DNA from: Acorus gramineus
Taxonomy: Eukaryota; Streptophyta; Magnoliopsida; Acorales; Acoraceae
DNA length: 64,000 nt
Direction: 5' to 3'
Assembly (NCBI GenBank): GCA_030737835.1
Contig: CM060852.1
Location: 9,344,507 to 9,408,506 of the forward strand
How positions within the stretch are numbered: the first letter of the stretch is position 1; each line of letters begins with the position of its first letter. The notes beneath the pieces are model-generated. The model searched no databases, was not told where the DNA came from, and saw nothing but the letters and a program-made list of their open reading frames with translations. The translations under genes were made by a program, and so were the position numbers. Shown one piece after another: positions 3,001 to 64,000 of this stretch.

Positions 3001-5544
3001 ATTTTTATAAGAAAAATTATTGAAGGGGGTCCCCATCCGCATCTTATGCAATGGAATATACTTAGATTTCTTTGAACATCGATGATTAACAAGAAGCAAT
3101 GATTGTTCCTTTACCGGAGCACCGACACCCACAAATGTATCATATCAAAATGAGTGCTATTACACACAGTTTTTTCCGTCTTAATCCTAATTTTACATGC
3201 GATAATATAAAATTATCAGAACATATACTCATATTAACGAGGTATATGTTTCGATAAAAAATTTTACATTTCTATTATGTATATGTGCAATTAATTGGAG
3301 TATATGATTTATTTTTTTCATGAAAAAAACATTTACCTCATTGAATGATGTATGTTATTTTTAAAATATTCAAAACACGTGTATATTGGAATTGAAACTA
3401 AAAAAAAGGTTCATAATATTATCCTATAAGTATTAATAGCTATCTATGAATTTGGATCCACACAAACCTCCATAAAAAAAAAAGAAAAGAAAAAGAAAAT
3501 ATGAGGTATATATCCGTCTTGCAATGGATAGATAGATAGACATATCATGTGTAAATGTGTTAGTCTCCCAAGAGATATTAATTAAAATATATCTTATAAA
3601 TTGTTCGAAGTTATATAATTTAATTTAGTGCAAATAAATGACCCACGTGCATAATACAGATGTAATGTTCACGTGAAATTCTTTAGTAGATCAAATATTC
3701 TTGTATGATACCAAATCATTTTTTCACGTATCGATAGATATGCTCCCTCTTCATGTAAAAGTCTTGATTAGAGTAAGACTTTGTTAATAGAAGAAGATTT
3801 GATCAACAATAATAATAATAATGATAAATTTAAAAAAAAAACTCTTATGAAAACATATATTTTATGATGATTCATATTAATTATTTTTAAAAAAATAAAA
3901 ACACACATAAAATGAAATTTTAAAAGTAAAAAACTTAACTTCTTATTAAAGCGATGTACATGATGACATGCATATATTAAACTGATCCAAATTTATTGGA
4001 ATCATCAAGTTGTTAAACTAATGTTCATTAGATATTTTTGAGGCACGTGAGACATGCTAGATTTTATAGGATTAAAAGACATAATAATTTTTTTTTCACT
4101 CTCCACTTGACGCCTCTAGACAGAGGCACCCGTTTCGAGGATCGAAATCTGAATCGTCCAATTCATGGTCTCTCTTAACATAAGTTTAACATTAAGGAAT
4201 CAACGGTTCACAAACAGCCACGTATTCCTCTCACATCATTGGCCAATCAGTTCGGTGTGATCCAATTCAACGGTCATGATAACTGATTCTCTTTATGGTA
4301 ACCGTGATTGCTGAACAGACGCGAAGAACGCGAAGTGGGTAAAAGACAAAACGGAAACCCACAATGTGAGGCCAATAAATCGGGACCGTTCATTTATGGA
4401 GCCCACACCCTCACAAACGAAATATATGTGGATGAATTATTACATGTACAAAAAAAACGGAATGCACACAAACCTTATCTGATCCAAGGAACACCATTCG
4501 CCATTCAAAAATAATCTTTATCGGATGTTTTAAATTTCGTTTCAACCCTCACCTCCTGTTTTATTTTACAAAATGGTCCTCCTTAGTAAAGGCCACCATT
4601 TCATCGATCATCACAAAAAAAAATCTTTACTGAAAATCTAGAATTATTTAATATTTGAAATAAAAACCCAAGTCATATTATTATATATTAGTTAAATTTA
4701 ATTAAAAAATTAAATAGCATTTATCATAATTTAACATTTAAATAACGCAGGCATTTATTACACGACATTCTTTCTTATCCTTAACCACCTGCTATATTTA
4801 GTCTTGCTATATTTAGTTATTTAATCATAATATTTAATCATGCTATATTTATCATAATTTAATATTTAAATAATAAAGGCATTTATTTCACAACATTCTT
4901 TCTTATTCTTAACCACTTGTTATATTCAGTCCCACTATATTTAGTTCAATATTTAGTTTATTTAGTTATTTAAAAATATTTATTTGTTATTCTTATCCGT
5001 TTAGAGTAAAAAAAATCTAAATTTAAAACCATGACTTTATCAAAATTGATCTGTTTTTTTTACAACTTTAAAATTCAGATCTCCTTAAAATTTATCCAAA
5101 ATATTTAAGTGTGAATGCAGATACTTAGTTTACAGGCCTATATATACAGTCTCTCTATGAATTGGGTATGGATAATTTCAAGGCCAAATATTCGAAATAT
5201 ATTGGGAGTCCTTACTGATTAAATAGATATTTAGGGGGCAAACTGTACTTATATGCGCAAACATAATAAATAAAGATAAAAAAAAAGAGAAAAAGTGATA
5301 TTCGGACCCGAAACGTGTAAAATACGCCCAACGCGCTGATGCCATCTTATCCGAAATAACACTGAACCGGTCAGTTTATCAAACGCTCACCGCCTCATCA
5401 AAACAAATTTGGACGGTTGAAATAACGCATCATCATGGGGGCACAACATAAAGCGGAGAACGACAATCAAGCTTCCTTTTTGTTTTTTGTTTTTTTTTTC
5501 AGAATTTCACCTCTCCCCGTCACGCTTCCCACTGCCCCTCGCTG
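1..5544. other. AT-rich intergenic region, no supported gene
   Basis: I see no gene here. The longest open frames are low-complexity or lack any family resemblance. About 1971-2100 holds a GA-rich imperfect minisatellite in which a roughly 29-base unit and a gaggccaa-containing block each recur. About 3220-3420 looks like a copy of an AT-rich dispersed repeat also seen near 28.26 and 57.63 kb. TA runs occur at about 1150 and 1235. Confidence 0.6.
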
Positions 5545-5552
5545 TATATAAA
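5545..5552 (+). promoter_or_regulatory. TATA box of the H+-pyrophosphatase gene
   Basis: A perfect TATATAAA lies 104 bases upstream of the ATG at 5656. This would place transcription start near 5580, just before a telo-box-like aaaccctag at about 5590, giving a leader of roughly 75 bases. Position and consensus are seen directly; use is inferred. Confidence 0.6.
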
Positions 5553-5655
5553 GCGGCGCGAGCGACAGAGCGAGAAAACACGACCACCGAAACCCTAGTT
5601 TTTGTTTCTCAGCCTCTCTTTGATTCTTTCGTTCTCGGACGAAGCTCCGGCGACA

Positions 5656-8600
5656 ATGGGGGAGGCGATGCTGTCGGACCTCCTGACCGAGATACTGATC
5701 CCGGTCGCCGCCGTGATCGGGATCGTCTTCTCGGTCGTGCAGTGGCTGCTGGTCTCGCGCGTCAAGCTCTCCTCGGACAGGCAGCAGCCGTCGAATAGCG
5801 GAAAGAACGGGTACTCCGACTACCTGATTGAGGAGGAGGAGGGGATCAACGACCAGAACGTAGTCGTCAAGTGCGCCGAAATCCAGAACGCCATCTCCGA
5901 AGGTAAAATCACATGTCCAGATCTGGTGGTTTCGGTGTTCGATCTGGTTTGATTTACCGGAAATGGTAGTTGATATGTGAAAAGTTTATTTTACTGTAAC
6001 AGTGTTGTTGTGCTTTAAATTATTGTTGAATTACGGAAATGTGTGGTTTCTGAATGACCTACCGAAGCGTGGATTTGAAAATGATTAGATCCTGAGATCT
6101 TGGACCATCGTTCACATGAAGTAGATACTTTGATTTGGTGTCCTGGATCCATGGATGGGGAATGACATTTTTATAATCTGTTTCTTTTGGTGATTTTTGG
6201 TATACCGCTTTTGTTTATGGTGTTGAATGTGGCTTTTGTTATAATATTTGTTGTCCCTAATGTGTTAACTACACCTCGTTCAGTGGGTCCTTTCTCTTTT
6301 GAATAATTATCTTATATTTGTGGGTTATGGAATTTGTGGTTACGCTATTGACCTATAGTGAATAGATATGTCCAACAGTACCTTGTAGATCCCAGATTCC
6401 ATTGTTAATGTGCTTGGGGTGGGGTAATAGCTGTTTTTATTGTTAAAATAATAGTATTATAAGATCTGTGTGCTACAGATCTTATTTTCATTTTGCAATT
6501 AAGATTGTATTAAATCTATTCATGCCCAGAAGATGGTATGGTCTAGTATTATATATTATTTATAGTGGCATATATATTTTTATGTTTATAGGCTGAATGG
6601 GAAGAAAATGTGTGTCTTTTCACATTTGAGATTTTTACTGATTTTGATTCTATGCTTAGAATATAAGGATAATGAGTTGGCAGTCAAATACTGATTCTAT
6701 TTCATAACATGTCCTTGTAACTTGAACATGAGCAATCCTCAAAGAGTTTTGCACCTTGTGATATAAATTTGTTCCAACTTTTGCTTAATATTTCAAAAAG
6801 GAATTGATTCATAAATTCTGGGCTGATATAAGGACAGAATTTTGAATAATGACATCGTAGCATTATTGACGAGTGTATTTGAAATTTTGCATGGGTTAAA
6901 ATGTTTATCAAAATTTATTTATGTCAATTAAACATCCTTTTGCAAATATTTTAATGCTTAAGTTATAGTACTTTGGTGCTGTTATCTAACATTTTTAAAA
7001 AGAATGAGCCAGAGCTTACCCATGGGGTATCCACTCAGTAATTTTTGTATGTATTGAATTTATTCTTTTGTTATTACAGAAGTTGTCTTTGTGAATTGCT
7101 ATGCCTCATTGAGAATATATTGGCTTGTCAATAATGTCACTATACTTAATTTTTTTTTAATATTAAAAAATACAAATTATCAGTTGTTTCAGGTGAGTGA
7201 TGGATATAATTAAAATATATGTAAATGTCCAATTCTCTATTTTTTAGATGAGTAGGGCAAATTTACAAATTTGAAAATATTAGTATTTTATCTCTTTTGT
7301 TACAGGTGCAACTTCCTTCCTTTTCACTGAATATCAGTATGTTGGTATCTTCATGATTGCCTTTGCCGTCCTTGTCTTCCTCTTCCTTGGATCTGTGGAG
7401 AGCTTCAGCACAAAGAGTCAGCCTTGCACCTATAGCAAGGACAAGTTGTGCAAGCCTGCCCTTTTCAATGCCATATTCAGCACCGTGTCATTCTTACTTG
7501 GTGCAATCACTTCACTGTTTTCTGGATACCTTGGGATGAAAATTGCGACCTATGCGAATGCAAGGACTACTCTTGAGGCGAGGAAAGGGGTTGGAAAAGC
7601 CTTTATCACTGCTTTCAGGTCTGGTGCAGTTATGGGCTTTTTGCTTGCAGCCAATGGTCTCTTGGTGCTTTACATTATCATTAACCTTTTCAAACTCTAC
7701 TATGGTGATGACTGGGAGGGCTTGTTCGAAGCTATTACTGGTTATGGTCTTGGTGGGTCTTCCATGGCTCTCTTTGGTAGAGTGGGGGGAGGAATCTACA
7801 CAAAAGCTGCTGATGTTGGTGCTGATCTTGTTGGGAAGGTGGAGAGGAACATTCCCGAGGATGATCCAAGAAACCCAGCTGTAAGAAATTCTTTCTGTTG
7901 ATTCAGTGCTTCTTCTCGATTAGATATGAGAGCTTGGAACTAATGCGATTATGTTAAAACAGGTGATTGCTGACAATGTTGGGGACAATGTTGGGGATAT
8001 TGCTGGAATGGGATCAGATCTTTTTGGTTCATATGCCGAATCCTCATGTGCTGCCCTTGTGGTTGCTTCTATCTCTTCCTTTGGGATTAACCATGATTTC
8101 ACTGCAATGTGTTTTCCTCTGCTCATCAGCTCCATGGGCATCATTGTTTGTTTGATCACCACCCTTTTTGCTACTGACTTCTTTGAGATAAAGGCTGTTA
8201 AGGAAATTGAACCTGCATTGAAGAATCAGCTCATTATTTCCACTGCCCTTATGACCATTGGGATTGCTTTTGTCAGTTGGATTGCCCTTCCATCATCCTT
8301 TACAATCTTCAATTTTGGTGCACAGAAACATGTGAAGAATTGGTGAGTTACCATTGCTATTTCTTAGTTAATATGAGGGAGTTCGGGTCTGAAGTCTGTT
8401 TTCTCTAAATTAATGATTAATTCAACAGGGAGCTGTTCTTCTGTGTTGCCATCGGGTTGTGGGCTGGCCTGGTTATTGGCTTTGTGACAGAATATTTTAC
8501 AAGCAATGCTTACAGGTATCAATTCCCATCTTTCAATCCTTTGAAAGAATATTTTTTTATTTTTTTTGTGTATGCAGATTCTTGATGTCTGATTCTTCTT

Positions 8601-10128
8601 GCTTTTTTTTCTTTTCCTTTTTCTCTCTTGCAGCCCTGTGCAAGATGTTGCTGACTCCTGCAGGACTGGAGCTGCTACTAATGTTATCTTTGGGCTTGCT
8701 TTGGGATACAAGTCTGTCATTATTCCAATATTTGCAATTGCCATTAGCATTTTTGTTAGTTTCAGCCTTGCTGCCATGTATGGTATTGCCGTTGCCGCTC
8801 TTGGAATGCTCAGCACCATTGCCACTGGGCTGGCCATTGATGCGTATGGCCCGATCAGTGACAATGCTGGTGGTATTGCTGAGATGGCGGGCATGAGCCA
8901 CAGAATCCGTGAGAGGACTGATGCTCTCGATGCTGCAGGAAACACCACCGCCGCCATTGGAAAGGTATATTGTTATCTGGCTATCAGTTCTTTCTACCTT
9001 CTCCGAATTGGCATTCACTAGCTAACATCGCCTTTGACATTCATTTTAGGGCTTTGCCATTGGATCTGCTGCTCTGGTGTCTCTGGCGCTTTTCGGAGCT
9101 TTCGTGAGCAGAGCGGCAATCTCGACCGTGGATGTCCTAACCCCAAAAGTCTTCATCGGGTTGATCGTCGGTGCGATGCTCCCATACTGGTTCTCTGCCA
9201 TGACCATGAAGAGTGTGGGCAGTGCGGCCCTGAAGATGGTTGAGGAGGTCCGCAGGCAGTTCAACACCATCCCAGGTCTCATGGAGGGCACCACAAAACC
9301 TGACTACGCCACCTGCGTTAAGATCTCCACTGATGCGTCGATCAAGGAGATGATCCCCCCAGGTGCCCTAGTTATGCTCACTCCTCTCATCGTTGGGACA
9401 TTCTTTGGTGTAGAGACCTTGTCAGGTGTTCTTGCTGGTGCCCTTGTTTCTGGCGTTCAGGTAATCACACAAGATTTTTTTTTTTTTTTTGAATAAATGC
9501 ACATTCCTCTTTGTTCTTTGATTCACTCTTTTGAGATTTGTTTTTATTTATGTGTGACAGATTGCGATTTCTGCGTCCAACACTGGTGGTGCTTGGGATA
9601 ATGCCAAGAAGTATATTGAGGTATTAAAATCTCCCTTCATTTTTTTAGACTCTACAAAAAAATTCATAAGATTATTTTCTAGAGTTCTGTATTAGTAGAC
9701 TTGAGAATTGAAGTTCACCCATTAATCACACCTTAAAATGATATGGAGTGTGATGTAAGGCCAAAAATGAGATTGATATATCATTAACGTGGGACTTCTT
9801 GTCCTCCCAATTCTGTGGTGTTGATGCCAATGCTTCAGATATCTTTTGATAAGATTATCATTATTGATTTTTTTTTATTTATGAAGCCCTGACGATCCTG
9901 TTTTGCAAAAACCATGGTCAGGCCGGAGCATCTGAGCACGCGAGGACACTGGGCCCTAAAGGTTCGGACCCGCACAAGGCCGCCGTGATAGGGGACACCA
10001 TTGGGGACCCACTTAAGGACACATCCGGCCCGTCGCTCAACATCCTCATCAAGCTTATGGCCGTCGAATCCCTCGTGTTCGCCCCCTTCTTCGCCAGGCA
10101 TGGTGGGCTCCTCTTCAAGATTTTCTAG
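5656..10128 (+). CDS. AVP1: Type I (K+-dependent) vacuolar H+-translocating inorganic pyrophosphatase
   Basis: This membrane-bound pump hydrolyses cytosolic pyrophosphate to acidify the vacuole. Exons are 5656-5902, 7306-7880, 7963-8342, 8429-8515, 8634-8964, 9050-9460, 9561-9620 and 9922-10128. They join in frame to 765 aa, the usual length of the family, all with GT-AG introns. Recognition features are the substrate-binding motif [11 protein letters not shown] at about residues 252-262, followed by the acidic NVGDNVGD segment, and many hydrophobic membrane spans. The GNTTAA motif near the end of exon 5 has alanine where K+-independent type II enzymes have lysine, so this is a K+-dependent type I pump. 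The C-terminus (LFKIF) matches plant homologues. Intron 1 is long (1403 bases). The first in-frame ATG after the TATA box is used. I see no damage. Confidence 0.97.
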
Positions 10129-10210
10129 AGTTGATGATGATGATGATGATGAAAAGAAAATGAGAGGATGGAAACAGTTCTTGTACCCTCCACAGTAGTT
10201 TAGTATACCC

Positions 10211-13200: not shown

Positions 13201-13453
13201 TAGTGAAAAATGCATAATAAAACGTTCATATAGAGCCGACCGTTAGACATAGGTAGGCTCCTGTGTTTTGTATTCTTTTACAAGAATTGTTCAAAAATAA
13301 ATAAATTTACAAAATACACAGATTTGGAATGACATCCCATTTAATACAAACCAGATTGACATAAAAACTCCAACCATCCTTTCCAACTGCAAACAAAGCA
13401 AAACAACCCATTCAACATTTCAACACATACACCACCCACTTTAACCAAAAAAA
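10129..13453. other. Intergenic region with repeats, no supported gene
   Basis: A probable 3' UTR with CT/CA and GA microsatellites follows the stop codon up to about 10500. A diverged tandem duplication lies at about 10510-11050. The segment from about 11085 to 12380 begins with gagcatcttcaa and ends with an inverted relative of it; a shorter segment at about 11913-12287 has catcttcaa in inverted orientation at its ends. These may be nested miniature transposons, but I am not sure. A run of 20 A at about 12935, after a LINE-like tail, and AT-rich sequence complete the region. Confidence 0.5.
10510..11050. repeat. Diverged direct repeat of about 250-290 bp
   Basis: Two adjacent segments, about 10510-10755 and 10756-11050, share an ordered set of blocks: a gttaca start, a tttttacacttaxtaa block followed by atgggtt and caxtt, then tttttatcaaa with catat and ttattaga, and a final aaaatgaaaac. 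The second copy carries an insertion of about 45 bases. The similarity was found by eye and the ends are approximate. Neither copy encodes protein. Confidence 0.5.
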
Positions 13454-14563
13454 ATGCTCAAGCTCCCATCTTTTCATCCCAAGAAACCCCAATCCGCACC
13501 GCCAAAACCCCATCAAACCCTAACCCCCAAATCCAACCCTCTCAACCAATTCCCAATCCCCTCCACCGCCCCCTCCCGCCTCCGCCGCCCCCTCCGCATC
13601 CGCGCCATCGACGCCGCGCAGCCCTTCGACTACGAGGCTCTGATGTCCCTCCGCCACGAGACCTCCACCAAACTCAAGATCGCCGTCGTCGGCTTCGGCA
13701 ACTTCGGTCAGTTCCTCGCCCGGACCATCGTCCGGCAGGGCCACACCGTCCTCGCTCACTCCCGCTCCGACCACTCCGCCGCCGCAGCCTCCGTCGGCGC
13801 CGCCTTCTATGCCGACCCTAACGACCTCTGCGAGGCCCACCCCGATGTGATCCTCCTCTGCACGTCGATCCTCTCCACCAAATCCGTCCTCCAATCGCTC
13901 CCCCTCCAGCGTTTGAGGCGGAACACCCTCTTCGTCGACGTGCTTTCGGTGAAGGAGTTCCCGAAAGACCTCTTCTTGAGCACTCTCCCCCGCGAATTCG
14001 ACATCCTCTGCACCCACCCGATGTTCGGGCCGGAGAGCGGCAAGAACGGGTGGGCCGACCTCCCGTTCGTGTACGAGAAGGTCCGCGTCGGGGGGCACCC
14101 GTCGCGGGCCGAGCGGATCGAGAGGTTCCTTGAGATTTTTAGGAAGGAAGGGTGTCGGATGGTGGAGATGTCGTGCGCGGAGCACGACAAACACGCGGCG
14201 GAGACGCAGTTCATAACGCACACCGTGGGGAGGATCCTTGGGAGGTTGGGGTTGCAGTCGACGCCGATCAATACGAGGGGGTATGAGACATTGTTGGATT
14301 TGGTGGAAAACACGGCGGGGGATAGCTTCGATTTGTATTACGGGTTGTTTATGTATAACAAGAACTCGACGGATCAGGTCGATCGGTTGGATGAGGCGTT
14401 CGGTTCGCTCAGGAGGGAGCTTTTCGGGAAGTTGCATGTTAAGGCTAGGGAGCATATTTTTGAGAGTGCGGATGGTGGGGAGGAGGGGAGCGAGGTGGCT
14501 TACCTTCGTGCGTTGCCGGAGAATGGCATTGCTGCTGAGGATCCTTCGATGAAATTGTCATAG
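13454..14563 (+). CDS. TYRAAT2: Arogenate dehydrogenase (TyrA family), chloroplastic
   Basis: This enzyme oxidatively decarboxylates arogenate to tyrosine with NADP+ in plastids. The gene is intronless and encodes 369 aa. Residues 1 to about 50 are rich in S, P, R and T and lack acidic residues, as expected of a chloroplast transit peptide. A Rossmann nucleotide-binding loop GFGNFG lies at residues 80-85. The TyrA landmarks HPMFGPESG (188-196) and ETQFITHTVGR (250-260) follow, the second containing the conserved catalytic-region histidine. The single catalytic domain corresponds to the short plant isoform (TYRAAT2 type) rather than the tandem-domain TYRAAT1. Coding GC is very high in the 5' half and falls towards the 3' end. 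The stop codon is followed by gaagaggtaagg, so a 3' UTR intron is possible. A 311-codon antisense frame here is a by-product of the GC-rich sequence. Confidence 0.93.
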   Translation: MLKLPSFHPKKPQSAPPKPHQTLTPKSNPLNQFPIPSTAPSRLRRPLRIRAIDAAQPFDYEALMSLRHETSTKLKIAVVGFGNFGQFLARTIVRQGHTVLAHSRSDHSAAAASVGAAFYADPNDLCEAHPDVILLCTSILSTKSVLQSLPLQRLRRNTLFVDVLSVKEFPKDLFLSTLPREFDILCTHPMFGPESGKNGWADLPFVYEKVRVGGHPSRAERIERFLEIFRKEGCRMVEMSCAEHDKHAAETQFITHTVGRILGRLGLQSTPINTRGYETLLDLVENTAGDSFDLYYGLFMYNKNSTDQVDRLDEAFGSLRRELFGKLHVKAREHIFESADGGEEGSEVAYLRALPENGIAAEDPSMKLS

Positions 14564-17500: not shown

Positions 17501-18438
17501 TAAAAGAACCCCTAGGTAGAAGAAGGATCTTCTTATAATAGAAATAAGAAGAGGATGAAAAGAGGAAAATACATGAAGGAGGGGGGTTAGCCCCTACAAA
17601 AGATAAACAACAGTGTCAATAATTTTTGAGGGATCATAAAAAATAAGTGCAATGAACCCCCAGAAAGAACAAGTGAAATTTGAAGTGGATGCTTCTCATT
17701 CCCATCAATTCAGTAAGTGGAATGTAAGTGTGTGCATGCCTTACCTATTCATATGCACCATATCATCAAATACAATGTATCATAACAATTCATCTGTGTA
17801 TCATATCTGAAAATATTAGTTAATGCATAGAATAATATAGAAGAACATAGCTTGTTGATCCACACAAGGTGTAATGCAATAAGCGATATCAAATATACTA
17901 AGTTAATTATCATCTGAAAAGCCCAGAATATTATAAACCGTTTTGATCACCCTCATTGATGAAGATTTGATTCTTCCAATAGGCAGAAACTATAAAGTCG
18001 AATCAATGAGATTTCGCAAATGTGTTAAAACTGTACCACCAACCAACATCTTGTATCACAATTTCTACATTGTCTATTGAGTTCAAAAGCCAATCATCTT
18101 TGACACACTCAGAACAACCAATGTCATATGATCTATTATGTGAGTCACTTGATTCCTTTAAGTCAAGCAAAATCAAACACAAATCATCTTCTCTATATAG
18201 AATCAATGAAAACATTCATGCATAACTGATAATAACTGAAGAATTAAAGCTTCAAAGCAAGCAATTTGGATATATATCATTTCAAACACAAATCTTCTCT
18301 CTATATATGTAAAATCAATGAAAACATTCATGCATAAGTGCATAACTGATAATAACTGAACAATTCAAGCTCCAAAGCAAGCAATTTTGAAATATAAAGC
18401 AAAAACGAATCAAAAGTCTCACATTGCAAAATCCGTGC
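14564..18438. other. Intergenic region, no supported protein gene
   Basis: The first several hundred bases are probably 3' UTR of the arogenate dehydrogenase gene. A splice-like acceptor before gaactcaccc at about 15110 would fit a spliced UTR. No open frame in the rest resembles a known protein. A TA dinucleotide hairpin occurs at about 17457-17474, and a tandem duplication lies at 18173-18394, next to the 3' end of TTM3. Confidence 0.5.
18173..18394. repeat. Tandem duplication, period about 109 bp
   Basis: Two adjacent copies, starting at 18173 and 18282, share blocks including tcaaacacaaatc, atgaaaacattcatgcataa, aactgataataactgaa and caaagcaagcaattt. The second copy has an extra repetition of gtgcataa. 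They lie 45 bases or more beyond the TTM3 stop codon and so probably in its 3' UTR. Confidence 0.7.
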
Positions 18439-19059
18439 TCAATTCAACTTCCCTGCCCGGAAGACCGCAAACTTGGACGCCTCATTGTACGCGTACGGTA
18501 TCCCATTCTCCCTCAACAGCCCCTCGAGAAGCTCCCTGGCCCTCTCCGGCTCAGCCGTCTCGCACTCCACCTCATAAGCCGTGCCAAACTCGAACCTTGT
18601 CTCGTCGACCTCCAACGTCAGCCCCGCCTCCACCCACCCGTACACGGCCCTCACGTTCCGAAACCCGCCCAAGCAGACGAACCCGCCCTCCCCGACCCCG
18701 AACTCCTCCACCGCCCTCCTCACAACCCTAGACGCCGCCGCCAGCGCCGCGAGCCTCCCCGGCTCGGCTACGCACGGCCGGGCGAGGAGGGGGTCGAGCT
18801 CTTCCTCGTCCTCCTCGGCACGGCCGATGCCGCCGGAGATGACGGCGCGGGCCTTGATCGAGGCGACGCAGCGGGAGTCGTCCGGGCCGTAGAAGCGGAG
18901 GCGGAGGACGGCGGCGTTCGAGGAGAGCTCGGCGGCGGCGCCATCGAAGAAGACGTTCTCCTGGAGGTGGGTCCGGAGGTGGTAGGGGGAGAGGACGTCG
19001 GAGAGGGCCTGGTGGGCGGCGGCGTCGGGGAGGCGGAGCTTGACCTCCACCTCCTCCAT
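18439..19059 (-). CDS. TTM3: Triphosphate tunnel metalloenzyme 3 (CYTH domain), second cistron after CDC26
   Basis: An intronless frame of 206 aa with a single CYTH/TTM domain. These enzymes hydrolyse triphosphate substrates; Arabidopsis TTM3 is a tripolyphosphatase. The signature ExExK is E3-V-E5-V-K7 at the extreme N-terminus. Further tunnel-type charged patches are LRLRFY, SIKARA, an acidic EEDEEELDP stretch, DETRFEFG, EVECET and the C-terminal EASKFAVFR. The start is the ATG that gives the ExExK motif its usual position. That ATG lies only 3 nt after the CDC26 stop codon and in the same frame, so TTM3 is the downstream cistron of a dicistronic transcript, as in Arabidopsis. Its translation would need leaky scanning or reinitiation. 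A close paralogue, also intronless, is at 53480-54094. Confidence 0.93.
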   Translation of the reverse strand: MEEVEVKLRLPDAAAHQALSDVLSPYHLRTHLQENVFFDGAAAELSSNAAVLRLRFYGPDDSRCVASIKARAVISGGIGRAEEDEEELDPLLARPCVAEPGRLAALAAASRVVRRAVEEFGVGEGGFVCLGGFRNVRAVYGWVEAGLTLEVDETRFEFGTAYEVECETAEPERARELLEGLLRENGIPYAYNEASKFAVFRAGKLN

Positions 19060-19062
19060 TGT

Positions 19063-19263
19063 CTAGGAGGGGTGGTGGTGGGCGATGCCGATGCGGCGGT
19101 GGGGGGTGTTGGAAGGATCTAGGGTTTTGTCGAGCTGGTGGAGGAGGTGGAGAGACGAGGAGGTGGAGCTAGGGTTAGGGTTTTTGGGTTTCTTGCGGGA
19201 TTCGAGGAGCTCCTCTTTGTCCTCCGCCTTCACTTCGATCTTGCTTGGCTTCCTTCGAAGCAT
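19063..19263 (-). CDS. CDC26: CDC26, anaphase-promoting complex subunit, first cistron
   Basis: A 66-aa frame starting MLRRKPSKIEVKAEDKEELL, which matches the conserved N-terminus of CDC26 (MLRRKP followed by a helix rich in K, E and D). This segment binds and stabilises the APC6/CDC16 subunit of the anaphase-promoting complex, the ubiquitin ligase that drives mitotic exit. Residues after about 27 are low-complexity (P, S, H and R), as in plant CDC26, where only the N-terminus is conserved. The frame ends with TAG at 19065-19063. The codon ACA follows, then the TTM3 ATG, all in one frame. Telo-box-like sequences (aaaccctaa on the minus strand) occur within the coding part and in the leader at about 19300. 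An upstream minus-strand ATG at 19402 overlaps out of frame but may lie outside the transcript. Confidence 0.88.
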   Translation of the reverse strand: MLRRKPSKIEVKAEDKEELLESRKKPKNPNPSSTSSSLHLLHQLDKTLDPSNTPHRRIGIAHHHPS

Positions 19264-19434
19264 CTCTTCTAATGGTTTTTGTTTTGTTGAAAAATTTAGG
19301 GTTTTTTTGTGGTTCTGAAATTCCGTTGTTCTTGTTATCCTTTCGTAGGGAGGGGGAGAGAGCAGCCCGACGAACCCAGCCCGGGAATGAATTTCGGGCC
19401 ATGTTTAAGACTCTCTGTTTAGGACTAATTCACT

Positions 19435-19981: not shown

Positions 19982-21445
19982 ATGGGGGCTCTGCTGAAGC
20001 ACACGCTCCCCATATTCTCCACCCGCTTTACACCGCCCACCCTCACCAGGCGGAGCATCCGAATCCACAGCCGCCCCTACCCCCACAGAAAAACCGCCTC
20101 CCTCTGCTCCCTCACCCATTCAGGTTCACCTCCCGGTGAGGATAACAACAATGGAACCCCTCCTCCTCCTCCAACTCCTCCGGTGCTGCAGATCTTCAAC
20201 ACCATGACGAGGAGGAAGGAGACCTTCAATCCGAAGGTCCCCGGGAAGGTCGGGATGTACGTATGCGGCGTCACCGCTTACGACCTCAGCCACATCGGCC
20301 ACGCCCGCGTCTACGTCACCTTCGATGTCCTCTACAGGTTGATTTCAATTTGTTTTTTTGTTTGGGTGTACTGTTTGGGTTGTTTGATGGGTGTTGATGT
20401 ATTGTGTTTGGGCAGGTATTTGAAGCATTTGAGTTTCGATGTCTGCTATGTTCGGAATTTCACCGATGTGGATGACAAGGTGAGTGTTTGTTGATTTGCT
20501 TGGTCTGTTTTTTGGTGTAGGAATCAAAATCTGGACAACCCATTAGGAGCTTTCATAGGTCTCTCGAACATAGTCACAAAGTACTATGAACATTTCTGGA
20601 TATTCTAACAAAGTTTGGCGATTAGATAACTCATGTACCTATGGGTTAAACATATTTTTGTTCATTGAACTGTGTGTCTAATACCTTCAGAGTCCGGGTA
20701 AACATTTATTTTTGGGGCGTGTTTGTGCACAAGCTCAGATGGAAAATGAAAGGAAGTGTGGGAATTTAAGTAAAAAATGATGGGAAGTAGTTCATTTTTC
20801 TTTTGACCAATTTTTATGTTGTTTGTGCATGTGATGGAAAGTGGTGGAATCATTTTCCCATACTTTCTGTCACAATCACTTCTATTGGGAGGAGTAATTT
20901 TTTTTTTTAATTTTTTCTAATAAGACAAAATAGATTAGGGAAGGTGAAGAATTTTGTTTTCTGTCTTATGTTTTGGCAAAACACTTGTTTTTTGAGTGGT
21001 CAATTTTTTTTAAACTTTTCTCTTGCTTCATTTTCCATCACGCACACCACGTTCTTGATGGTTTACCACATTCTTTCTAATTTAAAAAACTAACACTAAT
21101 TATCGTCATTGCCTTTTCAATTCTCACCAACATAGAAGTTTCTGCGTGCATTTCTCGTAAGAAGCTTGGCAACAATTGAACGATCTCTATACTTTTCTTG
21201 TATTTATTTCGTATGATTTATGAATGTACGCTTACTATACTGAATAGAATCCCTTGTCGAGTGTTTGTCATACACGAATTTTGTGACTATATCCGCCGAA
21301 CACCAGTGGAGGGGACTTGAAACTGGTACTTTATTATATTAGCCAGAGCACTTAAATATTGCTCGTAGCAATGGCCGCTGGTTTTATATGTTCCTAAATT
21401 ATAAGAGGACCAACATGTTAAAGAAGTGATGCCATATTTTTATAT

Positions 21446-21481
<36 letters not shown>

Positions 21482-24400
21482 AATACATATTTTTTTAGGG
21501 GGGAAATATTGAAAAGTGAAACCTTGGTCCTCTGATTAGAGATGTCATACTATTATATTGCAGTTACGCATAGAGTTCTAATGTGCACTTGTAAACATGA
21601 CTTATGTATCTACTGCTTCTTTACATATGCGTGACAGGAAAGCTGAGTTCTGCACTTTTGGAATTCTGTAGATAATTGCTAGAGCCAATGAGTTGGGGGA
21701 AGATCCATTGAGGTTGAGCAGCCGATACTGTGATGAATTTCATACTGATATGGCATATCTTCATTGCCTTCCACCATCTGTTGAACCACGTGTATCTAAT
21801 CACATGAGCCAGATTATAGACATGATAAAGCAGGTATATTATATTTTCCAGTAACAGCATTTTGTTATAATGGTACTTTTCTCTCATGTAGATGGGTAGT
21901 TTAGACTGCTTCTTTGTTGCATGAAATTGCATGATAAGTCAATATTTTCTCCAACCAGAAAGGCACTGGATTGGATTGGTAGCTCCTCTACCCCCAAGGA
22001 AGAGGCAGGTGTCCGATTCCCTGCAGTATGTACAAAATTGGATATTTAGATTCCGTGGCCACTAGGGTCTTGTAAATGTTTTTTTAATCTTCTCAAAAAA
22101 ATATCCAAATATTCTCTTGAAAAAAACATCAATTTTTAACTGCAATAACCTAATGGGGATCCACTTGTTCGGGGGCTTTTAATTAATAAAAGTTCCTACC
22201 TTGCTTCAACAAAAAAAATAATAAAAAAAGCTAATGGGGATAATTCCGTATGTTTTGTTCTTAGTATTTCATTTAATAACGGCGGATTGGGTTCTGATAT
22301 CTCATCCCAAGAGTACCTAAACAATTTTAGTGAGATAATGTTGCAATTCCTCAGAACAGAGTGACTTCAAATTATATGGATTTGATTACATTTGATGTTC
22401 GTTATTAATTTAGATATGACACTGCTTCTTTTCATGTATGGTGCAAAACTAGGGCTGCATATAAGAACCAAACCGCATTAGTTTATGTCTACAATTCTCT
22501 TGTTATCTGTAATTTGATTGCACCAACTGTGCAATATGAGTGCTTAAAAGACTGTTAACAGGCACTAGTAAATCTGTTGACCTGTCCAAGGCATTATATT
22601 TACAGAACCTTGACTTTGACTTGTTCCTTGAACAGATTCTTGATAGTGGTTGTGCATACACAATTGATGGAGACGTGTACTTCTCTGTTGATAAATTCCC
22701 TTCATATGGCCAACTTTCAGGGCGTAAGTTAGAAGATAATCGCGCAGGGGAACGAGTTGCTGTAGACTCGAGGAAGCAAAATCCAGCTGATTTTGCACTA
22801 TGGAAAGTGAGTAAATATTCATTTGGATTGTTTTCAGTATATTATTCCCTATATTAGTTACCCATCTTTTACAGATCTGATTCCATACAATGATGGTCTA
22901 ACATTTGTCAAGTAGGCCTCAAAGGCAGGGGAACCATATTGGGAAAGTCCATGGGGACCTGGAAGACCTGGATGGCATATCGAGTGCAGTGCGATGAGTG
23001 CTGCTTATCTGGGTTACTCGTTCGATATCCATGGTGGAGGGATGGACCTTGTGTTCCCCCACCATGAAAATGAAATCGCTCAAAGTTGCTCTGCCTGTCG
23101 GGAGAGCAACATAAGATACTGGGTACATAACGGCTTTGTGACCGTGGACTCAGAGAAAATGTCAAAGTCACTTGGGAACTTCTTCACCATTCGCCAGGTA
23201 AGGGTTACTTGTTCCACCCATTGCTTCATCGGGTGTGAGCTTTATAGGGGGCTCACTGATTCTTCTCAACTTTTGATTTTAATATTTTTTTTTCACTCAG
23301 GTTATAAAACTGTACCATCCTTTGGCTTTGAGGCTTTTCTTGATGAGCACACATTACAGGTCACCGATCAATTACTCGAATGTGCAGCTTGAAAGCGCAT
23401 CTGATCGTTTGTTCTATATCTATCAGGTACTCCTCATAATTTATGCGAGAAGCTCTTGTATCCAAAAAAAAAAAAAAAAATCTTCAGCATGTATGCGATA
23501 AACATGCACCTGGTACTTATGTGTTCCTTTTCCATGAACTTTTGAGGACTGTAGACTTTACAAGATTGTGAAGAGGTATTGGGACAACATCATGAAAGCA
23601 ACTTCAGTGATATGGCACCTTCTGATACTCAGGACTGTATATCTAGATTTCAATGTGCTTTTGAGACCTCCATGTCAGATGATCTGCACACCCCTGTTGT
23701 TTTGGCTGCCCTATCTGAACCGCTGAAAACTATCAATGATCTCCTCCACACCCGTGAGGTATGCGTCAATTACCAAAACAGGACAGAAAATGTCGATAAA
23801 AAATTTATATTATTTTTTATTTGACTGTGTTCAATAATATGGACAAACTGGTTCTACTTGAGCAGGGGAAGAAACAAAAATCACGCATTGAATCTTTGGT
23901 GGCTCTGGAAAGGGAAAGTAGGAACGTGCTAAAAGTTCTCGGTTTGATGCCCTCTAGTTATATGGAGGTATTATAATTGTAGTTGCTTTTTGAAAATGAG
24001 TACTCAAATTCGAGGTTTGATCAATAACTTGTTCATAGCCAATTGTCAAATTGATTCTCATTATGCAAAATCAGTTTTCAGATAATTGGTCCCAAACAGT
24101 TTTTCGTTAACTTTATTTTGATTTTGATTTTGGTTTTTATGTGTTAAAAATAACAATACAGCTTTGATGGAAAAGTTGGTTGAAAGCGGCTTTATGAAAA
24201 AGCTGATTTGGAGTACTCAAACTTGATCTATACATTCTCTGAGCCATAAAACCTGTAATTAAACAGATTCTCTGGGAACTGAGAGAAAAGGCGCTAGAAA
24301 GAGCTGGAATGAGTGAAGAACAAATACTGAAGAAAATCAAGGAAAGGGCACAAGCGAGGGAAAACAAGCAATATGAAAGATCAGATGAGATCAGGAAAGA

Positions 24401-25376: not shown

Positions 25377-26455
25377 TTGTCCTATGAATCACTTTTTTAT
25401 AAGTATATGCATACATACATTGAATCACACATCTATCTCTTTGCGAGTAGCAGCATTTCGAGGAGCTACTCGAAAAAGATGATGTTGTTTGTCTTCTTCA
25501 CTTGCCTCGTAGTCTTCACTAGAGGTCTGATCATCAGCTATGATATCGACATCTCGAGTGGTGTGACTATGATGCAGCCCTTTCTTTCCATTGGTGTATG
25601 TTGAAAAGAGCCCGAGCCTGTACTACAAATACGACAGTCTGAAGCTCACCCTCTTCACCTCCTCTCTCTATTTGGTGGCTCTGGTCGCCTCCTTCTTTGT
25701 GTCTACTGTGACGCAGAAGTTCGATCGGAAGACCACGATGTTGCTCGGTGGTCTCATATTTCTAGTGGGCGCGGTCATCAACAACTTCTCACATATGCTC
25801 GCGATGCTTATCATCGACCGTGTGCTCCTTGGTGTTAGCATCGGCGTCGACTTCGCCGATCAATTTATGCCACTCTACCTCTCCGAGATGGCCCTGACGA
25901 AGCTCCGATAAATGCCTGACATCGGTTTCCATCTAATGATCATCATCGGCTTCCAACCTCATCAACTACTCCACATCAAAGATCAAGTCCGACAAGGGGT
26001 GGCGCATCAGCCTTGGCATTGTCGCTGTCTCGAACCATATCATCAACCTCAGCTCGCTCTTTTCCTCCCAGACAACCCCAACTCCCTTATTGACCGCGGC
26101 AGTGATGACACAGTCAAGGACATGCTCCGCCGCATACACAACACCTCTGACATTCACCAAGCGTACACTGACTTGGTTGCTGTGATGGAGGCTTCCAAAG
26201 CAGTTGAGAAGCCATGGAGGAACATACTGAAGAAGAAGTACATAGCCCAGATGGTGATGACCATGATGATTCCATTCTTTTAGCAGCTCACTGAGATCAA
26301 TGTGATCATGCTCCACATGCTAGTGTTGTTCAAGACGAGCGGTTTTGGAGACCACGTATCCCTCTTATCATCGGTCATCACCGGACTCGTTAACCGCATC
26401 ACCACATTCCTCTTTGTCTTCACTGTTGATAGATCAAGTCGTCACTTCCTCCGTC
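25377..26455 (+). pseudogene. Sugar transporter (STP/MST, MFS) pseudogene, forward arm
   Basis: Successive frames read as pieces of a plant monosaccharide/H+ symporter in the right order. They include [18 protein letters not shown], then [95 protein letters not shown] and TVDRSSR. The frame breaks at about 25600 and after the sequence for MALTKLR at 25911. An in-frame TAG at 26281-26283 replaces the glutamine expected after MMIPFF. No complete reading frame remains and the C-terminal half is missing. It converges on an inverted partial copy starting at about 26463. Confidence 0.85.
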
Positions 26456-26462
26456 TATCAAT

Positions 26463-27075
26463 GGTGAAGATGGAGAGAAATGTGGCGATGCGGTTAACGA
26501 GTCCGGTGATGACCGATGATAAGAGGGGGTGTGTGGTCTCCGAAACCGTTCGTCTTGAACAACACCAGCATGTAGAACATGACTGCATTGATCCCAGTGA
26601 GTTGCTAAAATAAGGGGATCATCATGGACATCACCAACTGTGCTCTATACTTCCTCTTTATTATGTTCATGGCTTCTCAACCTCTTTTGAAGCCTCCAAT
26701 GTAGCGACCAAGTCGGTGCTCTTCATTGATGTCTGAGGTGACGCGAACAATGGAGCGACCAAGTCGGTGCTCTTCATCGATGTCTGAGGTGACGCAAATG
26801 CGACAGAGCATGCCCTTACATCATCGTAGTCACGGTCGCTAAGGGAGTTGGGGTGTCAGGGAGGAAGAATGAGCTGAGGGTGATGATGATGTCCAGGACG
26901 ATGGTGAGGCCAAGGCTGATGCGCCACCCCTCGCCAAACTTGATCTTTAATTGAAAGCCGATGAAGATAAGACCTTTGGTGGTGGCTACGAGACAGGTGA
27001 TGAACATCATCATCTTCCTTCGGTATCTCCTTGAAATGCTGCTACCCACAACGACTATCCCTGTCATTTCCAAAA
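26463..27075 (-). pseudogene. Sugar transporter pseudogene, inverted and internally deleted arm
   Basis: Read on the minus strand from about 27070 downwards, this repeats the forward arm: SSISRRYRRKMMMFITCLV, then a jump (deletion of the first membrane-span block) to IGFQLKIKFGEGWRISLGL and SSFFLPDTPTPL. It continues through EASKEVEKP, MMIPLF, the same TAG before QLTGINAVMFY, and GFGDH up to the junction with the forward arm at about 26460. The shared TAG indicates that the ancestral copy was already broken before the inverted duplication. A 51-base tandem duplication (26703-26797) lies inside. Confidence 0.8.
26703..26797. repeat. 51-bp tandem duplication in the pseudogene
   Basis: The block agcgaccaagtcggtgctct, continuing to gtctgaggtgacgc, occurs at 26703 and again at 26754 with one substitution in the shared part. 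Confidence 0.85.
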
Positions 27076-53479: not shown

Positions 53480-54094
53480 ATGGAGGTCGAGGTCAAGCTC
53501 CGTCTCCCTGACGCCTCCGCCCATTCCCGCCTCGCCTCCGCCCTCTCCCCCCACCACCTCCGCACCCACCACCAGCACAACTTCTTCTTCGACGGCTCCT
53601 CCGGCGAGCTCTCCTCCCGCCGCGCGGTCCTCCGCCTCCGCTTCTACGGCCCCTCCGACTCCCGATGCGTCGCCTCCCTCAAAGCCCGCGCCGTCATCGC
53701 CGACGGCATCAGCCGCGTCGAGGAGGACGAGGAGGACCTCGACCCCCTCCTCGCCCGCCCCTGCGTCGCCGACCCCGGTCGCCTCGCGATGCTGGTCGGC
53801 GGTTCTAGGATTCTGACGAGGGTCAAGGAGGAGTTCGGCGTCGGCGACGTGGGTCTCGTGTGTCTCGGGGGGTTCGAGAACGTGAGGGGGGTGTACGGTT
53901 GGAGGGGGCTGACGGTGGAGCTCGACGAGACGAGGTACGAATTCGGCACGAGTTACGAGGTCGAGTGTGAGACGTCGGAGCCGGAGAGGGCGAGGGAGAT
54001 GCTGGAGGGGTTCCTCGCGGAGGAGGGGATACCTTACGCGTACTCCGAGGCGTCCAAGTTCGCCGTCTTCCGGGCGGGGAAGCTGCTGCCTTGA
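53480..54094 (+). CDS. Triphosphate tunnel metalloenzyme 3-like paralogue, monocistronic
   Basis: Intronless frame of 204 aa, clearly paralogous to the TTM3 at 18439-19059. It shares [64 protein letters not shown] and [13 protein letters not shown]. The ExExK motif is E2-V-E4-V-K6, and the other charged tunnel residues are kept, so it should be catalytically competent. Two residues are missing after VYGW compared with the first copy. The frame extends upstream to an ATG at 53402, but the start at 53480 aligns with the paralogue. No CDC26 frame precedes it. The equally GC-rich coding sequence and lack of damage suggest a functional gene that arose by dispersed duplication. Confidence 0.92.
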
Positions 54095-59092: not shown

Positions 59093-59602
59093 AATATAAT
59101 ATTCTTCACATACATTTTTCAAGTGATCATACCTAACATCCAAAATATTCATCAGAATCCACTGATTCACATCTGAAATCAAATCAGATGCAAATCCTTT
59201 TAGATTTTTGATATAGGGAAGAATCCTATATTTTCTCTCCACATTTAATAGACTACGTACCACACTCCACCAGAACTAACGAAAAAAGGTCCACCAGTGG
59301 GGACCATTCGATCAATAAGTCTTTGAAAATCCAAGCGACAGCGATCAATCTAGTCTTTCCGTGTATGACGGAGACCAATGATTGGACCCTCGTCAGTACC
59401 ATTCAATAAATACAAATCGAAACCGGGGGCATTTGCGTAAATCACCTCCTCTTCCCCGCAAATCACGACCGCCTTTTCCTCGACACCCCGCCGAAAATTC
59501 CCCTGATAAAAAATCGGCGATTTATTAAAATCTGCTGAGACTCTCTTCGGTTCATCGGCGATCCGCCGCCAAATGAAGCCTTTCGCTTTCTAGGGTTTCT
59601 AC
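59093..59602. other. Promoter and 5' UTR region of the GT43 gene
   Basis: The sequence turns from AT-rich to GC-rich at about 59430. A short upstream ATG at 59573 (atgaagcctttcgctttctag) opens a 7-codon frame ending 9 bases before the main ATG, and a telo-box-like tagggtttc lies at 59591. No TATA box is clear. Confidence 0.5.
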
Positions 59603-62600
59603 ATGGCTTCCATCCGACGGACCCTATCACCGTCGAAGAATCACGATCGGACGCACCAGAAGCACTCCCCCGTCGACCTCCGGCGGATCCTCGCCGGGGA
59701 AGTCTTCCTCCATCGCCACCCGCGGCGGCACGCGCCGTGGAAGCAATCGCTGCTTCTCCGGTTGCTCCTCCTCTTCCTCGCCGGGTTCTTCGTCGGCATC
59801 TCCCCCTTGATCGGCCTCGAAAGAGGGGGCTTCGATCCGCCTCCGGTGGATCTCGAAAGCTCAGATTCGACGGTCCCGAGGAAGCTCGTGATCGTGGTGA
59901 CCCCGACGTACGAGAGGGCGCACCAGGCGTACTACCTGAACCGGGTCGCGGGGGCTCTGAAGCTGGTGCGGCCGCCGCTGCTGTGGATTGTGGTGGAGGC
60001 GGAGGCGGTGATGGCGGAGACTGCCGAGATGCTGAGGCGGACGGGGTTGATATACAGGCACCTGGTTTGCGAGAAGAATTTGACGGATGCGAAGGACCGA
60101 CGGGTCCACCTGAGGAACAGAGCGCTCGAGCACATCGAGCGGCACAGGTTGGATGGGGTTGTTTATTTTGCTGATGATGATAATGTGTACTCGGTCGAGC
60201 TCTTCGAGCGCATCAGAGAGATTAGGTAATTGTTCTTGTTCTTCATTTGAAATTTTGAATGATTTTCTTTTAGGCCCTGTTGGGACTGTTTAGATTAGGT
60301 AATTGTTCTCATGCTCTATTTGGATGCTTTCACTTTATGCAAAATCAGTTTGCATATAATTAGTTCCAAACAGTTGTGTTAAAGCTTTTAGCTTTTGGTC
60401 TCATATCTTCTTTTTTTTGTGTTAAAAAGAGCAACTTTTATATATGTATATATAAAATTGTGTGTTTAGATTGGTTGTAGATTTGATATAAATTTTATGA
60501 TCTCAAATATTAACTGGTAAGGTGGTTGAGGTTGTTTGAAAAATGTGGTAAACTGAGAAGCTGGGTTGGTCAGTTCATTTGACAATTTAGTGATGAGTGA
60601 AGCGAAATAGTCATTTAATGTTGAGAGTGAGACAAATATAAGTATTGTATTGGGTATGTAAACTGATCATATGTGTGATGTTACTGAACTGATTTTGTCA
60701 TGAAATAGTCGGGTTTCAATATTCTAAATTAGTAACTAGGTACTATATTCATCAAGAGGGGAAAATATTCATTCTGGACTTGACATTTTTTTCATTATTC
60801 TGCCTTTGATGGTTTTTTTTTTTTGTCAAATGTCACACAATGTTGCACTTCAAAAATGTCTCACAATGTGCTTCCTTGTATGACTGTGTGAGTTGCAGTT
60901 TTTCTTTCTAACAAGTCTCCACTTGTGAATATATTGTTACAAGTCCATCCAATCCCTTCTAACCCAGGAGTAAGCTAATTTCAGTTGATTTTGCACCTTC
61001 AAGTTAATACTTTGCGTTTGAGTGTCAGATGAGAGATAAAATTTGAACCATAATGTTATATAAATTATGGGATTTTAGCTTCAAATGGCCTGATCCAAGT
61101 AAGAATGATCCCCCCCCCCCCCTAAATATATATATATATATATATATAAAATAAAAAGAAGAAAAAAAAGTCAAAGAGGTGGAGGACCAATATTTACTTG
61201 TACAGTTTGTTCCTGTGTACTTTTATTTTTTAATGAACTGATTAAATTGTGGAATTCAGGCGCTTTGGAACTTGGCCGGTTGCCATGCTTGCTGAGAGCA
61301 AAAACAAAGCAGTGCTTGAAGGTCCCATATGTAATGGAAGTCAAGTAATTGGATGGCACACAAATTTAAAGAGCAAGAGAATTCGAAGATTTCATGTTGA
61401 TATGTCGGGATTTGCATTCAATAGCACAATTCTTTGGGACCCCAAGAAATGGCGCAGGCCAACCTCAAATCCCATAAGGCAGCTGGACACAAAAAAAGAT
61501 GGGTTCCAAGTAAGTGTTGTTTTACTCAACTTCTTTTGTATGCCTTATTATGGTTCAAAACGTGTAGTTCGGTCATATGAAAAATGCTAGGGATGCAAAT
61601 CCATGTTTGTAATATTTCACTGTCATCTGTTTAATTGTGCCCACCATTACAGGAATTATTCCTGTTTGCATCTATGATTTGCATAGTCCTTGAGAATGGG
61701 CCATTATAACATGATGAACAGGACCTTGACATGGAACTGTCAGGCCATCCAATGTTTCAATGTAAACTATGCAAGAGTTGGTGTAGGATAAATTCTGCAC
61801 AATCATTTTGAGGTCATGTGTGCACTAATCTGTCCGTATTGGTACTTTGGATTTTGCACATGTGCATATACTCTCTGATTGCTTGAACTTAATCTGCTTA
61901 GTTTTAATAGGATGGGTGTCCCATCTGGTAATTAGTGGGCCAAAACATCGCAAGGCGCGTGTCATCAACTTGACCTCCATGGTGTTTACCAATATCTAGA
62001 GTTTTTGATGTCAGATTGAGGGCCATTTGATTAAAGTAAGCTTGACTCACAAATGGGTGGAATAGGGCTTGTTCGCTCTGGTTATGGTTAATTTTTTTAC
62101 TGTGTTTCGTGATGTGACCATATAGCGGGAGTTGTTCCTGTATAGGTTACTTACTTACTATTATGGCGTTTAATCCTGTTTGATTGCAATTATAGAAATG
62201 GTGTCAGCAAGAAATCATATCGTCTACTTGTTGAATTTATTTTCAGAACTGACCCAAAATTTGTGCTTTATTGCCCATCAGTGCTGGTCCTGAATTTAAT
62301 AATATGACTATGTTTTATTTGCATCCCTTTGCTATATCTCACATGCAACCCTCAATCGCTTGCATTTTGCATGCATAACAAATATGCTATTAAAAAAAAA
62401 AATGAACTTATCATTCTAGAATCAGTTGTGTTATTGTGAAATGCAAAAAATTAGCTAAGGGTTCCTTGCCATATCTCATGTGCAAACCCTCCCTCTCGTC
62501 CGCAATGAGAAAATCAAATTTTACGGTGATACCTTTACTAATGGGTCAAATTACATACTTTTTGCTTGTTTATCAGCGTATTGTGAGTTAATAGATTTTG

Positions 62601-63097
62601 GTAGTTTTCTGCAGTATTTTTTCATTCTCTCAACTCTTTGGGACTTGTTGCCAAAGCACTCTTAACACATTGATTGTTCACTTTAAGCCACATACAATTT
62701 GTTGGTGTTATGTACCATAAAAAACATTCCTCAAATATACAAGAATTCTTTTGCATTTTTGCTTATTATTATCGCACACATTAATCCTTCACCTCAGTTC
62801 TTTAATTTCCTCATTCTGCCCTAATCATGTGGGCACATAGCCACATAATGTTTAAAAATGATGTGCAACATTGGTATAACCCCATAATCCGTTGCCTAAT
62901 CCCTCTTGATCACGTTCCCAATCCAGGAGACAACATTTATCGAGCAAGTCGTTGAAGATGAGAGTCAAATGGAAGGCATACCTCCTGGTTGCTCGAAGAT
63001 CATGAACTGGCATTTACATCTAGAGGCTCAGAATCTTGCGTATCCCAAGGGATGGCAACTGCAAAAGAGCCTTGATGCTGTCCTTCCCATCAAGTAG
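59603..63097 (+). CDS. IRX9H: GT43 glycosyltransferase, probable beta-1,4-xylosyltransferase (IRX9H-like)
   Basis: A Golgi type II membrane protein involved in building the xylan backbone of cell walls. Exons are 59603-60225, 61260-61509 and 62927-63097; they join in frame to 347 aa. A short basic cytoplasmic N-terminus beginning [10 protein letters not shown] is followed by one hydrophobic membrane anchor at about residues 48-66 ([20 protein letters not shown]). The GT43 domain starts at about residue 92 ([20 protein letters not shown]), with the nucleotide-sugar/metal DDD motif at about 191-193 in [10 protein letters not shown]. Later conserved parts are [21 protein letters not shown] and NWHLHLE. 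The [10 protein letters not shown] start and sequence favour IRX9H over IRX9 or IRX14. Plant IRX9-type proteins may act structurally in the xylan synthase complex with IRX14 and IRX10. A 7-codon upstream frame might lower translation. Intron 1 contains a run of 13 C next to a TA repeat. Confidence 0.92.
60335..60450. repeat. Dispersed AT-rich repeat, copy in GT43 gene intron 1
   Basis: Matches the segment at about 24056-24215 in the cysteinyl-tRNA synthetase gene over ttatgcaaaatcagttt, ataattxgttccaaacagtt and gtgttaaaaa, in the same order. Confidence 0.5.
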
Positions 63098-64000
63098 GCA
63101 ACATGTCCAGTGGTGCTGTTTCTTCATGGAGACAGGTCTGAATCCTTCAAAAGTGAATACAACCCCTTTTCAGGTTCACCTTTCAATCTCCCATAAACAT
63201 ACTGGTTCAGTTTTTCGCGTATCTTGACTGCATGTCACAGCAGGTAAACTAGATTCTCATAACACCCAGCAAAGTCCTGCTTAATTAATCTGGAGTGGAT
63301 GGATCTTATAGAAATCCCTTTGATACAATTTTTTTGTTTTTTTTTTCTTGACATAAACGGTAGGCATTTCATTAATTGAATAAGAGTGCCCAATGGGAAA
63401 TGCAAAAGGTAGTCAGAAGAATGAGCAGGAGAGAGAGTCTTACTTAGACCAACCACAAGTATTCAACCACAAGTAGTCAGAATGGGAGATACAATTCTTT
63501 TTGTTGTAAAACAAAACAATTTAGTATTTAATCAAACCACCTTGCTATATATGTAGCCAACTGACATTTTTTTTCCCATACGAGGAACATCAGTTGGAAA
63601 AAAAAACCTTGGATGCACCATTGTAACCAGCCTAGTTTGTAACCAAATGGTATTGTTGTTACCTGATGTTTTACCAATATTTATTGAATTATCAATCCTT
63701 GTTTTTTTAAGGTTTTCATATCCTTGTTGGTAATTTGATTGTTGGACATACCCGAAATTGATGTGTTGTTTTTTTTGTCAATTTTTTTTTTACTTTTGAA
63801 TAGTATTGGTGATGTCAGAAGTCAGATACAATACAATCAAGTTTTCTGTGTTTACACAGCAAGGATTTTTTTTTATAAAAAAAAGCAGAAAAATAGGATA
63901 TCACAAATTGGATTCCTTTTTAATAATGTTGATTTGTAAAATAAATTGGTCATGCATTCTCTAATTCTGATGGGAGAATTATTAAATAATCCAGATTTGT
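63098..64000. other. 3' region of the GT43 gene and intergenic DNA
   Basis: Probably 3' UTR for the first few hundred bases. About 63335-63400 reads on the minus strand as a LINE-like tail: attcaattaatgaaatgcct, then tatgtcaag and an A run. No further gene is seen before the window ends. Confidence 0.5.

Follow-up and report, generated by a model that had tools for sequence, protein, structure and literature searches.

In plants and green algae, an open reading frame (ORF) for CDC26, a subunit of APC/C, has been described upstream of TTM3 in the same transcript. A comparison of Arabidopsis and rice cDNAs in 2012 recorded a cdc26-homologue uORF before At2g11890 as CPuORF homology group HG30, which the passages on this group termed a putative dicistronic transcript (PMC3426882). 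Citing reviews credit Lorenzo-Orts et al. (2019) with showing the bicistronic CDC26–TTM3 mRNA of Arabidopsis and what CDC26 does in that plant. As stated in passages of PMC11291117 and its journal version PMC11892635, the CDC26–TTM3 locus is conserved across plants and green algae, and leaky scanning accounts for the translation of algal bicistrons. Both versions, citing others, also state that in Arabidopsis the mRNA becomes sensitive to NMD through its short CDC26 ORF and that translation of TTM3 raises the output of CDC26. TTM3 homologues numbered nine in Houttuynia, four in Piper nigrum, three in M. cordata and two in Papaver somniferum, according to passages of PMC11415239.

The CDC26–TTM3 pair at locus A

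The window, a stretch of 64,000 nucleotides, corresponds to C6:9344507-9408506 of a 398.6-Mb assembly. On its minus strand, a 66-aa ORF for CDC26 (19063..19263) was located directly upstream of an intact 206-aa ORF for TTM3, a CYTH-domain triphosphatase (18439..19059). The CDC26 ORF runs from the ATG at 19263 to the TAG at 19065-19063 and is followed by the 3-nt spacer ACA (19062-19060), which puts both ORFs in one frame. The ATG of TTM3 is at 19059, and its TGA ends at 18439. This pair is referred to as locus A. An earlier note on this DNA had described a 3-nt, same-frame junction on the minus strand with both frames intact and had recognised the pair as the one known from Arabidopsis; coordinates and family matches agree with both statements.

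The identity of the second ORF as TTM3, predicted to be a triphosphatase by its family, is secure. It matched Pfam CYTH (PF01928) with an E value of 1.6e-15 and 57.8 bits (cut-off 23.2), and it matched four distinct sequences of solved chains. The best of these was 6yp4 (E 1.3e-76), which we take to be a monocot enzyme, and the Arabidopsis TTM3 chain 5a5y gave an E value of 2.4e-57. The ExExK motif noted earlier at the N terminus of TTM3 was found as MEEVEVK at locus A and as MEVEVK in the second TTM3 of the window, locus C.

The identity of the first ORF as CDC26 is thinner than that of TTM3. Pfam ANAPC_CDC26 (PF10471) matched residues 1-27 only, with an E value of 6e-5 and 24.3 bits, 0.2 below the curated cut-off of 24.5. 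The CDC26 chain 3hym came first among the solved chains, and the N-terminal segment with MLRRKP, also noted earlier, aligned with residues 1-24 of 3hym_A at an E value of only 0.067; unrelated chains followed at 0.18-0.24. A second copy on contig C3, 90% identical and with an omega of 0.13, strengthens the CDC26 identity. Two adjacent, intact and recognisable frames are in our judgement no chance event, and the shared frame by itself is a 1-in-3 event. Third-position GC was high at locus A (0.78 and 0.90), and together with 6yp4 as the best match it makes the earlier note's reading of the source as a probable monocot plausible. The window had no Rfam match at gathering scores.

The pair has been published for Arabidopsis, rice and green algae, and a monocot copy is therefore expected. 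The earlier note overstated the linkage in a monocot as special, since the Arabidopsis–rice cDNA comparison had found the pair in 2012 (PMC3426882). Locus A is a typical example of the plant dicistron already known. Immediately 3' of its TTM3, at 18173-18396, is a direct repeat with units of about 115 bp and 83% identity.

Predicted transcription and translation of locus A

One promoter upstream of 19263 would give one mRNA carrying both ORFs. The closest ATG 5' of CDC26 is 139 nt away, at 19402, and is CTG in the C3 copy. Just inside it, a block on the minus strand (19357..19401) with the runs TGGCCCGAA and CCGGGCTGGG is common to locus A and the C3 copy in their alignment. From the CTG that C3 has in place of this ATG and the position of the block, we infer that transcription starts downstream of 19402 and that the leader is short. 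The block may represent the promoter or the 5' leader of the pair.

Most scanning ribosomes would initiate at the CDC26 AUG, and some would bypass it and reach the TTM3 AUG. The TTM3 AUG has A at -3 and G at +4 and the CDC26 AUG has G at -3 and C at +4, the TTM3 context being the better of the two. Between the start codons, ATG was absent from all three frames; base composition alone predicted 1.2. The same region was also ATG-free in 80% of 5000 dinucleotide shuffles and in 83% of 20000 codon permutations, and the ATG desert was therefore rejected as proof of leaky scanning. A synonymous-recoding control carried no information, because 20000 of 20000 trials had zero ATGs. Leaky scanning fits the sequence of locus A.

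Reinitiation after CDC26 could also translate TTM3, and the spacer of just 3 nt would suit it. According to passages of PMC11291117, reinitiation is higher where a few bp separate the ORFs and was proposed by earlier authors for algal constructs with spacers of 6-10 bp. The same passages state that reinitiation declines as the uORF grows longer and that the algal bicistrons tested, at other loci, acted as expected of leaky scanning. We consider it unlikely that reinitiation rather than leaky scanning serves the TTM3 of locus A.

Locus A could instead be two separate genes, with a TTM3 promoter inside or near CDC26 and no functional dicistronic mRNA. The solitary TTM3 of locus C, a putative gene, persists without CDC26 upstream and speaks for this arrangement, whereas the bicistronic Arabidopsis mRNA and the conservation in plants and algae, as reported by citing papers, make it very improbable. 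With a spacing of 3 nt, there is no room for a TTM3 promoter outside CDC26.

The earlier note had also proposed a CDC26–TTM3 fusion as a third product, made by readthrough of the single TAG. Its sole support is the shared frame, with just ACA between TAG and ATG, and such a frame is expected in one of three cases. A 76-nt stretch at the junction, chosen by us, folds as a hairpin with a z of -4.2, and 0 of 200 dinucleotide shuffles were as stable. However, the signal weakened in longer stretches, to z -2.7 and z -1.7 at 121 and 341 nt, respectively, the hairpin came 40th among 204 transcript windows, and 65 of 1000 synonymous recodings were at least as stable. The stability is within reach of the encoded peptides and codon usage, and the hairpin was rejected as evidence. 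The corresponding C3 stretch folds differently. The readthrough extension is in frame at locus A but has TGA and another frame on C3; since TTM3 is dead there, the C3 stop codon and frame say little on readthrough. TAG followed by ACA lies outside the readthrough contexts known to us, which counts against the fusion. We regard the fusion as extremely unlikely. As an observation on the fold itself, the hairpin spans 19035-19110 on the minus strand, and both the stop codon of CDC26 and the AU of the TTM3 start codon fall in its 8-nt loop, UAGACAAU.

CDC26 without TTM3 on C3 and a solitary TTM3

A DNA search of the 398.6 Mb with the dicistron gave at least three matches, namely locus A, locus C and a stretch of C3. 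Protein searches of the genome gave at least two TTM3 loci and at least two CDC26 loci, and a further CDC26 match had an E value of 1.9 and a stop inside. These copy counts are lower bounds, because scoring was limited to the top candidates and took no account of introns.

The C3 match was 80% identical, covered CDC26 and ran into the very start of TTM3. At this locus (locus B, C3:16225046-16225314, in sequence L003), CDC26 has 61 codons without an internal stop, is 90% identical to that of locus A and ends in TGA. The start codon of TTM3 is lost and the frame is shifted; about 20 codons remain recognisable, with 51/60 bases as in locus A, and the alignment is poor thereafter. Similarity to C3 returns at 18043-18128 of the window, beyond the TTM3 that is gone from locus B.

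The CDC26 pair of loci A and B showed an omega of 0.13 (95% 0.05-0.31) over 61 aligned codons and a dS of 0.532 (0.26-1.09). By our reckoning, rather than by a computed test, a copy unconstrained since duplication should push omega to about 0.5 or more. The CDC26 of locus B is therefore probably functional. Its open frame was rejected as proof of function, as it also stayed open in 37-60% of neutral simulations, and the argument for function rests on omega.

Both homoeologues keep a 9-nt CAATGTGAG run, recognised by eye, at 18418-18426 (-) of the window and at 1442-1450 (-) of L003; in locus A it lies just past the TTM3 stop. The run could be the splice donor of a 3' UTR intron and, if real, bears on NMD.

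A 200-kb stretch of C3 around locus B shared three anchors with the C6 window in the same order and orientation. The first is a vacuolar-type H+-pyrophosphatase (V-PPase) gene with several exons, at approximately 5650..10130 (+), one exon of which matched H_PPase (E 6.5e-60); the second is CDC26. The third is a glycosyltransferase family 43 (GT43) gene with matching stretches after it, at approximately 59594..63246 (+), the first ORF of which matched Glyco_transf_43 (E 6.2e-31). Window positions 5368-10146 (V-PPase), 18997-19401 (CDC26) and 59596-63246 (GT43 and what follows it) corresponded to C3 stretch positions 85443-90859, 100046-100436 and 118603-122229, respectively. The remaining blastn matches between window and C3 were shorter, scattered and in both orientations, like dispersed repeats. 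Two other coding features of the window had no match in the C3 stretch. One is the cysteinyl-tRNA synthetase gene next to locus A (19982-23389, +), two ORFs of which matched tRNA-synt_1e; it is oriented divergently from the dicistron, with about 720 bp in between. The other is a prephenate-dehydrogenase-like ORF of 372 aa (13445-14560, +) with a nucleotide-binding domain of that type. Elsewhere in the window, 25975-26951 and 58629-59085 match their own reverse complement at about 71% identity, like large inverted repeats or palindromic elements.

The dS of the V-PPase pair was 0.456 (0.378-0.544) when four pieces, whose exon limits are approximate, were pooled, and single pieces gave 0.29-0.65. 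A short piece of the GT43 anchor gave 0.575. The values of 0.456 for the V-PPase anchor, 0.532 for CDC26 of A and B and 0.469 for TTM3 of A and C are alike. From the conserved gene order, we take loci A and B to be homoeologues from a segmental or whole-genome duplication.

Locus C, 34 kb from locus A, is a second intact TTM3 of 204 aa (53480..54094, +), with 80% DNA and 76% protein identity to that of locus A; the genome DNA search matched 53482-54085 (+) at 80% identity. It scored 61.2 bits against Pfam CYTH (cut-off 23.2) when scanned with a 26-residue extension. These 26 residues could be added from an in-frame ATG at 53402, 78 nt upstream of the start (53402-53479). Protein and DNA searches found no recognisable CDC26 beside locus C. 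Outside the coding region, locus C had no convincing similarity to A or B. An origin as a copy with the flanks of locus A was rejected, the best match upstream or downstream being 26 bases (E 3.5e-4).

Between the TTM3 of loci A and C, dS was 0.469 (0.34-0.66) and omega was 0.36 (0.23-0.55), and with this omega, relaxed constraint on one of the two may exist. The locus C frame was still open in 2-11% of neutral simulations; given this and the values for the CDC26 of locus B, open frames alone prove little. Locus C scored 241, 216 and 257 bits against Arabidopsis TTM3, 8h92 and 6yp4, respectively, and locus A scored 197, 193 and 260 bits.

By eye, an extra codon after the TTM3 start is seemingly common to A and B and is absent in C, AtTTM3 and 6yp4. 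This suggests that locus C parted before A and B split; its dS does not tell. The B remnant shared 51/60 bases with A and 38/57 with C, and A shared 44/57 with C; counts from the remnant are soft because B is decaying. An origin of locus C from the lost TTM3 of the C3 copy is not favoured, given the extra codon in A and B and a B remnant nearer to A.

Apparent uncoupling of CDC26 and TTM3

The sequences, the collinearity, the decay of TTM3 on C3 and the dS and omega values are observed, and they are very probably explained by a conserved dicistron, read by leaky scanning, that was duplicated, with C3 keeping CDC26 and losing TTM3 and with a further TTM3 standing alone. The genome would have undergone a segmental or whole-genome duplication, after which the C3 duplicate would have held CDC26 under purifying selection while TTM3 lost its start codon and almost all of its sequence. 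The TTM3 of locus C, which has upstream DNA of its own, would have split off at about the time of the duplication or earlier. For this explanation, we infer one transcript, leaky scanning, and the expression and function of every copy.

This plant appears to have a CDC26 copy without a TTM3 partner and a TTM3 copy standing alone. The sequence data support the presence of all three forms, linked, CDC26-only and TTM3-only, in one genome, which indicates that CDC26 and TTM3 are not strictly tied. This coexistence is what is new here and is of moderate interest, the dicistron itself being already in print. Among the papers listed in a search mainly of openly accessible literature, there was no report of CDC26 or TTM3 uncoupled from its partner. 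Extra TTM3 genes are not rare and as such not new, since passages of PMC11415239 give several copies in other plants; some of the homologues in Houttuynia and those other plants may be solitary too. None of the 137 pattern matches in viral_contigs and 437 in genome_contigs, collections not built of plant genomes, was confirmed by tblastn as a relative.

A division of labour among the copies is a tentative and rather unlikely further reading. Locus C would supply the enzyme and C3 would supply CDC26, and the TTM3 frame of locus A would be retained in part because it influences how CDC26 is translated and how stable the message is, so that its protein could change faster. This reading draws on the longer maximum likelihood (ML) branch of locus A and on three relative-rate tests, one of which was significant. 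In an ML tree of five sequences, the branches of A and C were 0.28 and 0.09, respectively, and A and C were joined at 52% bootstrap. Site patterns also favoured A with C, by 14 against 5 and 3 with 6yp4 and AtTTM3 and by 9 against 2 and 2 with 6yp4 and 8h92. The relative-rate counts for A and C were 21:7 with AtTTM3 (chi2 7.0), 12:7 with 8h92 (chi2 1.3) and 16:15 with 6yp4 (chi2 0.03), of which the first was significant, uncorrected. Accelerated evolution of the TTM3 in the dicistron is at this stage a lead rather than an established result.

With all three forms present, this genome offers a natural experiment on the coupling of CDC26 and TTM3. A CDC26 copy seemingly living without TTM3 and a TTM3 free of CDC26 make it possible to ask if the coupling is required or a historical relic.

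The solved chains 6yp4, 5a5y, 3v85 and 8h92 were all matched nearly full length by loci A and C, 6yp4 being deposited as an adenylate cyclase. In multi-copy plants, as here, there is more than one TTM3 gene per genome, and the passages of PMC11415239 on them do not mention CDC26. Like locus A, the green algal bicistronic loci, which include CDC26–TTM3, have a short ORF 1 before ORF 2, and leaky scanning fits both; in contrast to the algal loci as described in passages of PMC11291117, the scarcity of ATGs between the starts of locus A is within chance in two controls. HG30, like locus A, has a cdc26-homologue uORF ahead of an At2g11890-type ORF, and the HG30 passages of PMC3426882 are silent on uncoupled copies, which are present in this genome. 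Arabidopsis At2g11890 is described, like locus A, with the CDC26 ORF upstream of TTM3 in one gene. Its CDC26 is about 65 aa long compared with 66 aa at locus A, and its TTM3 likewise starts with ExExK. Unlike the description of At2g11890, the genome studied here adds a CDC26-only and a TTM3-only copy to the linked pair.
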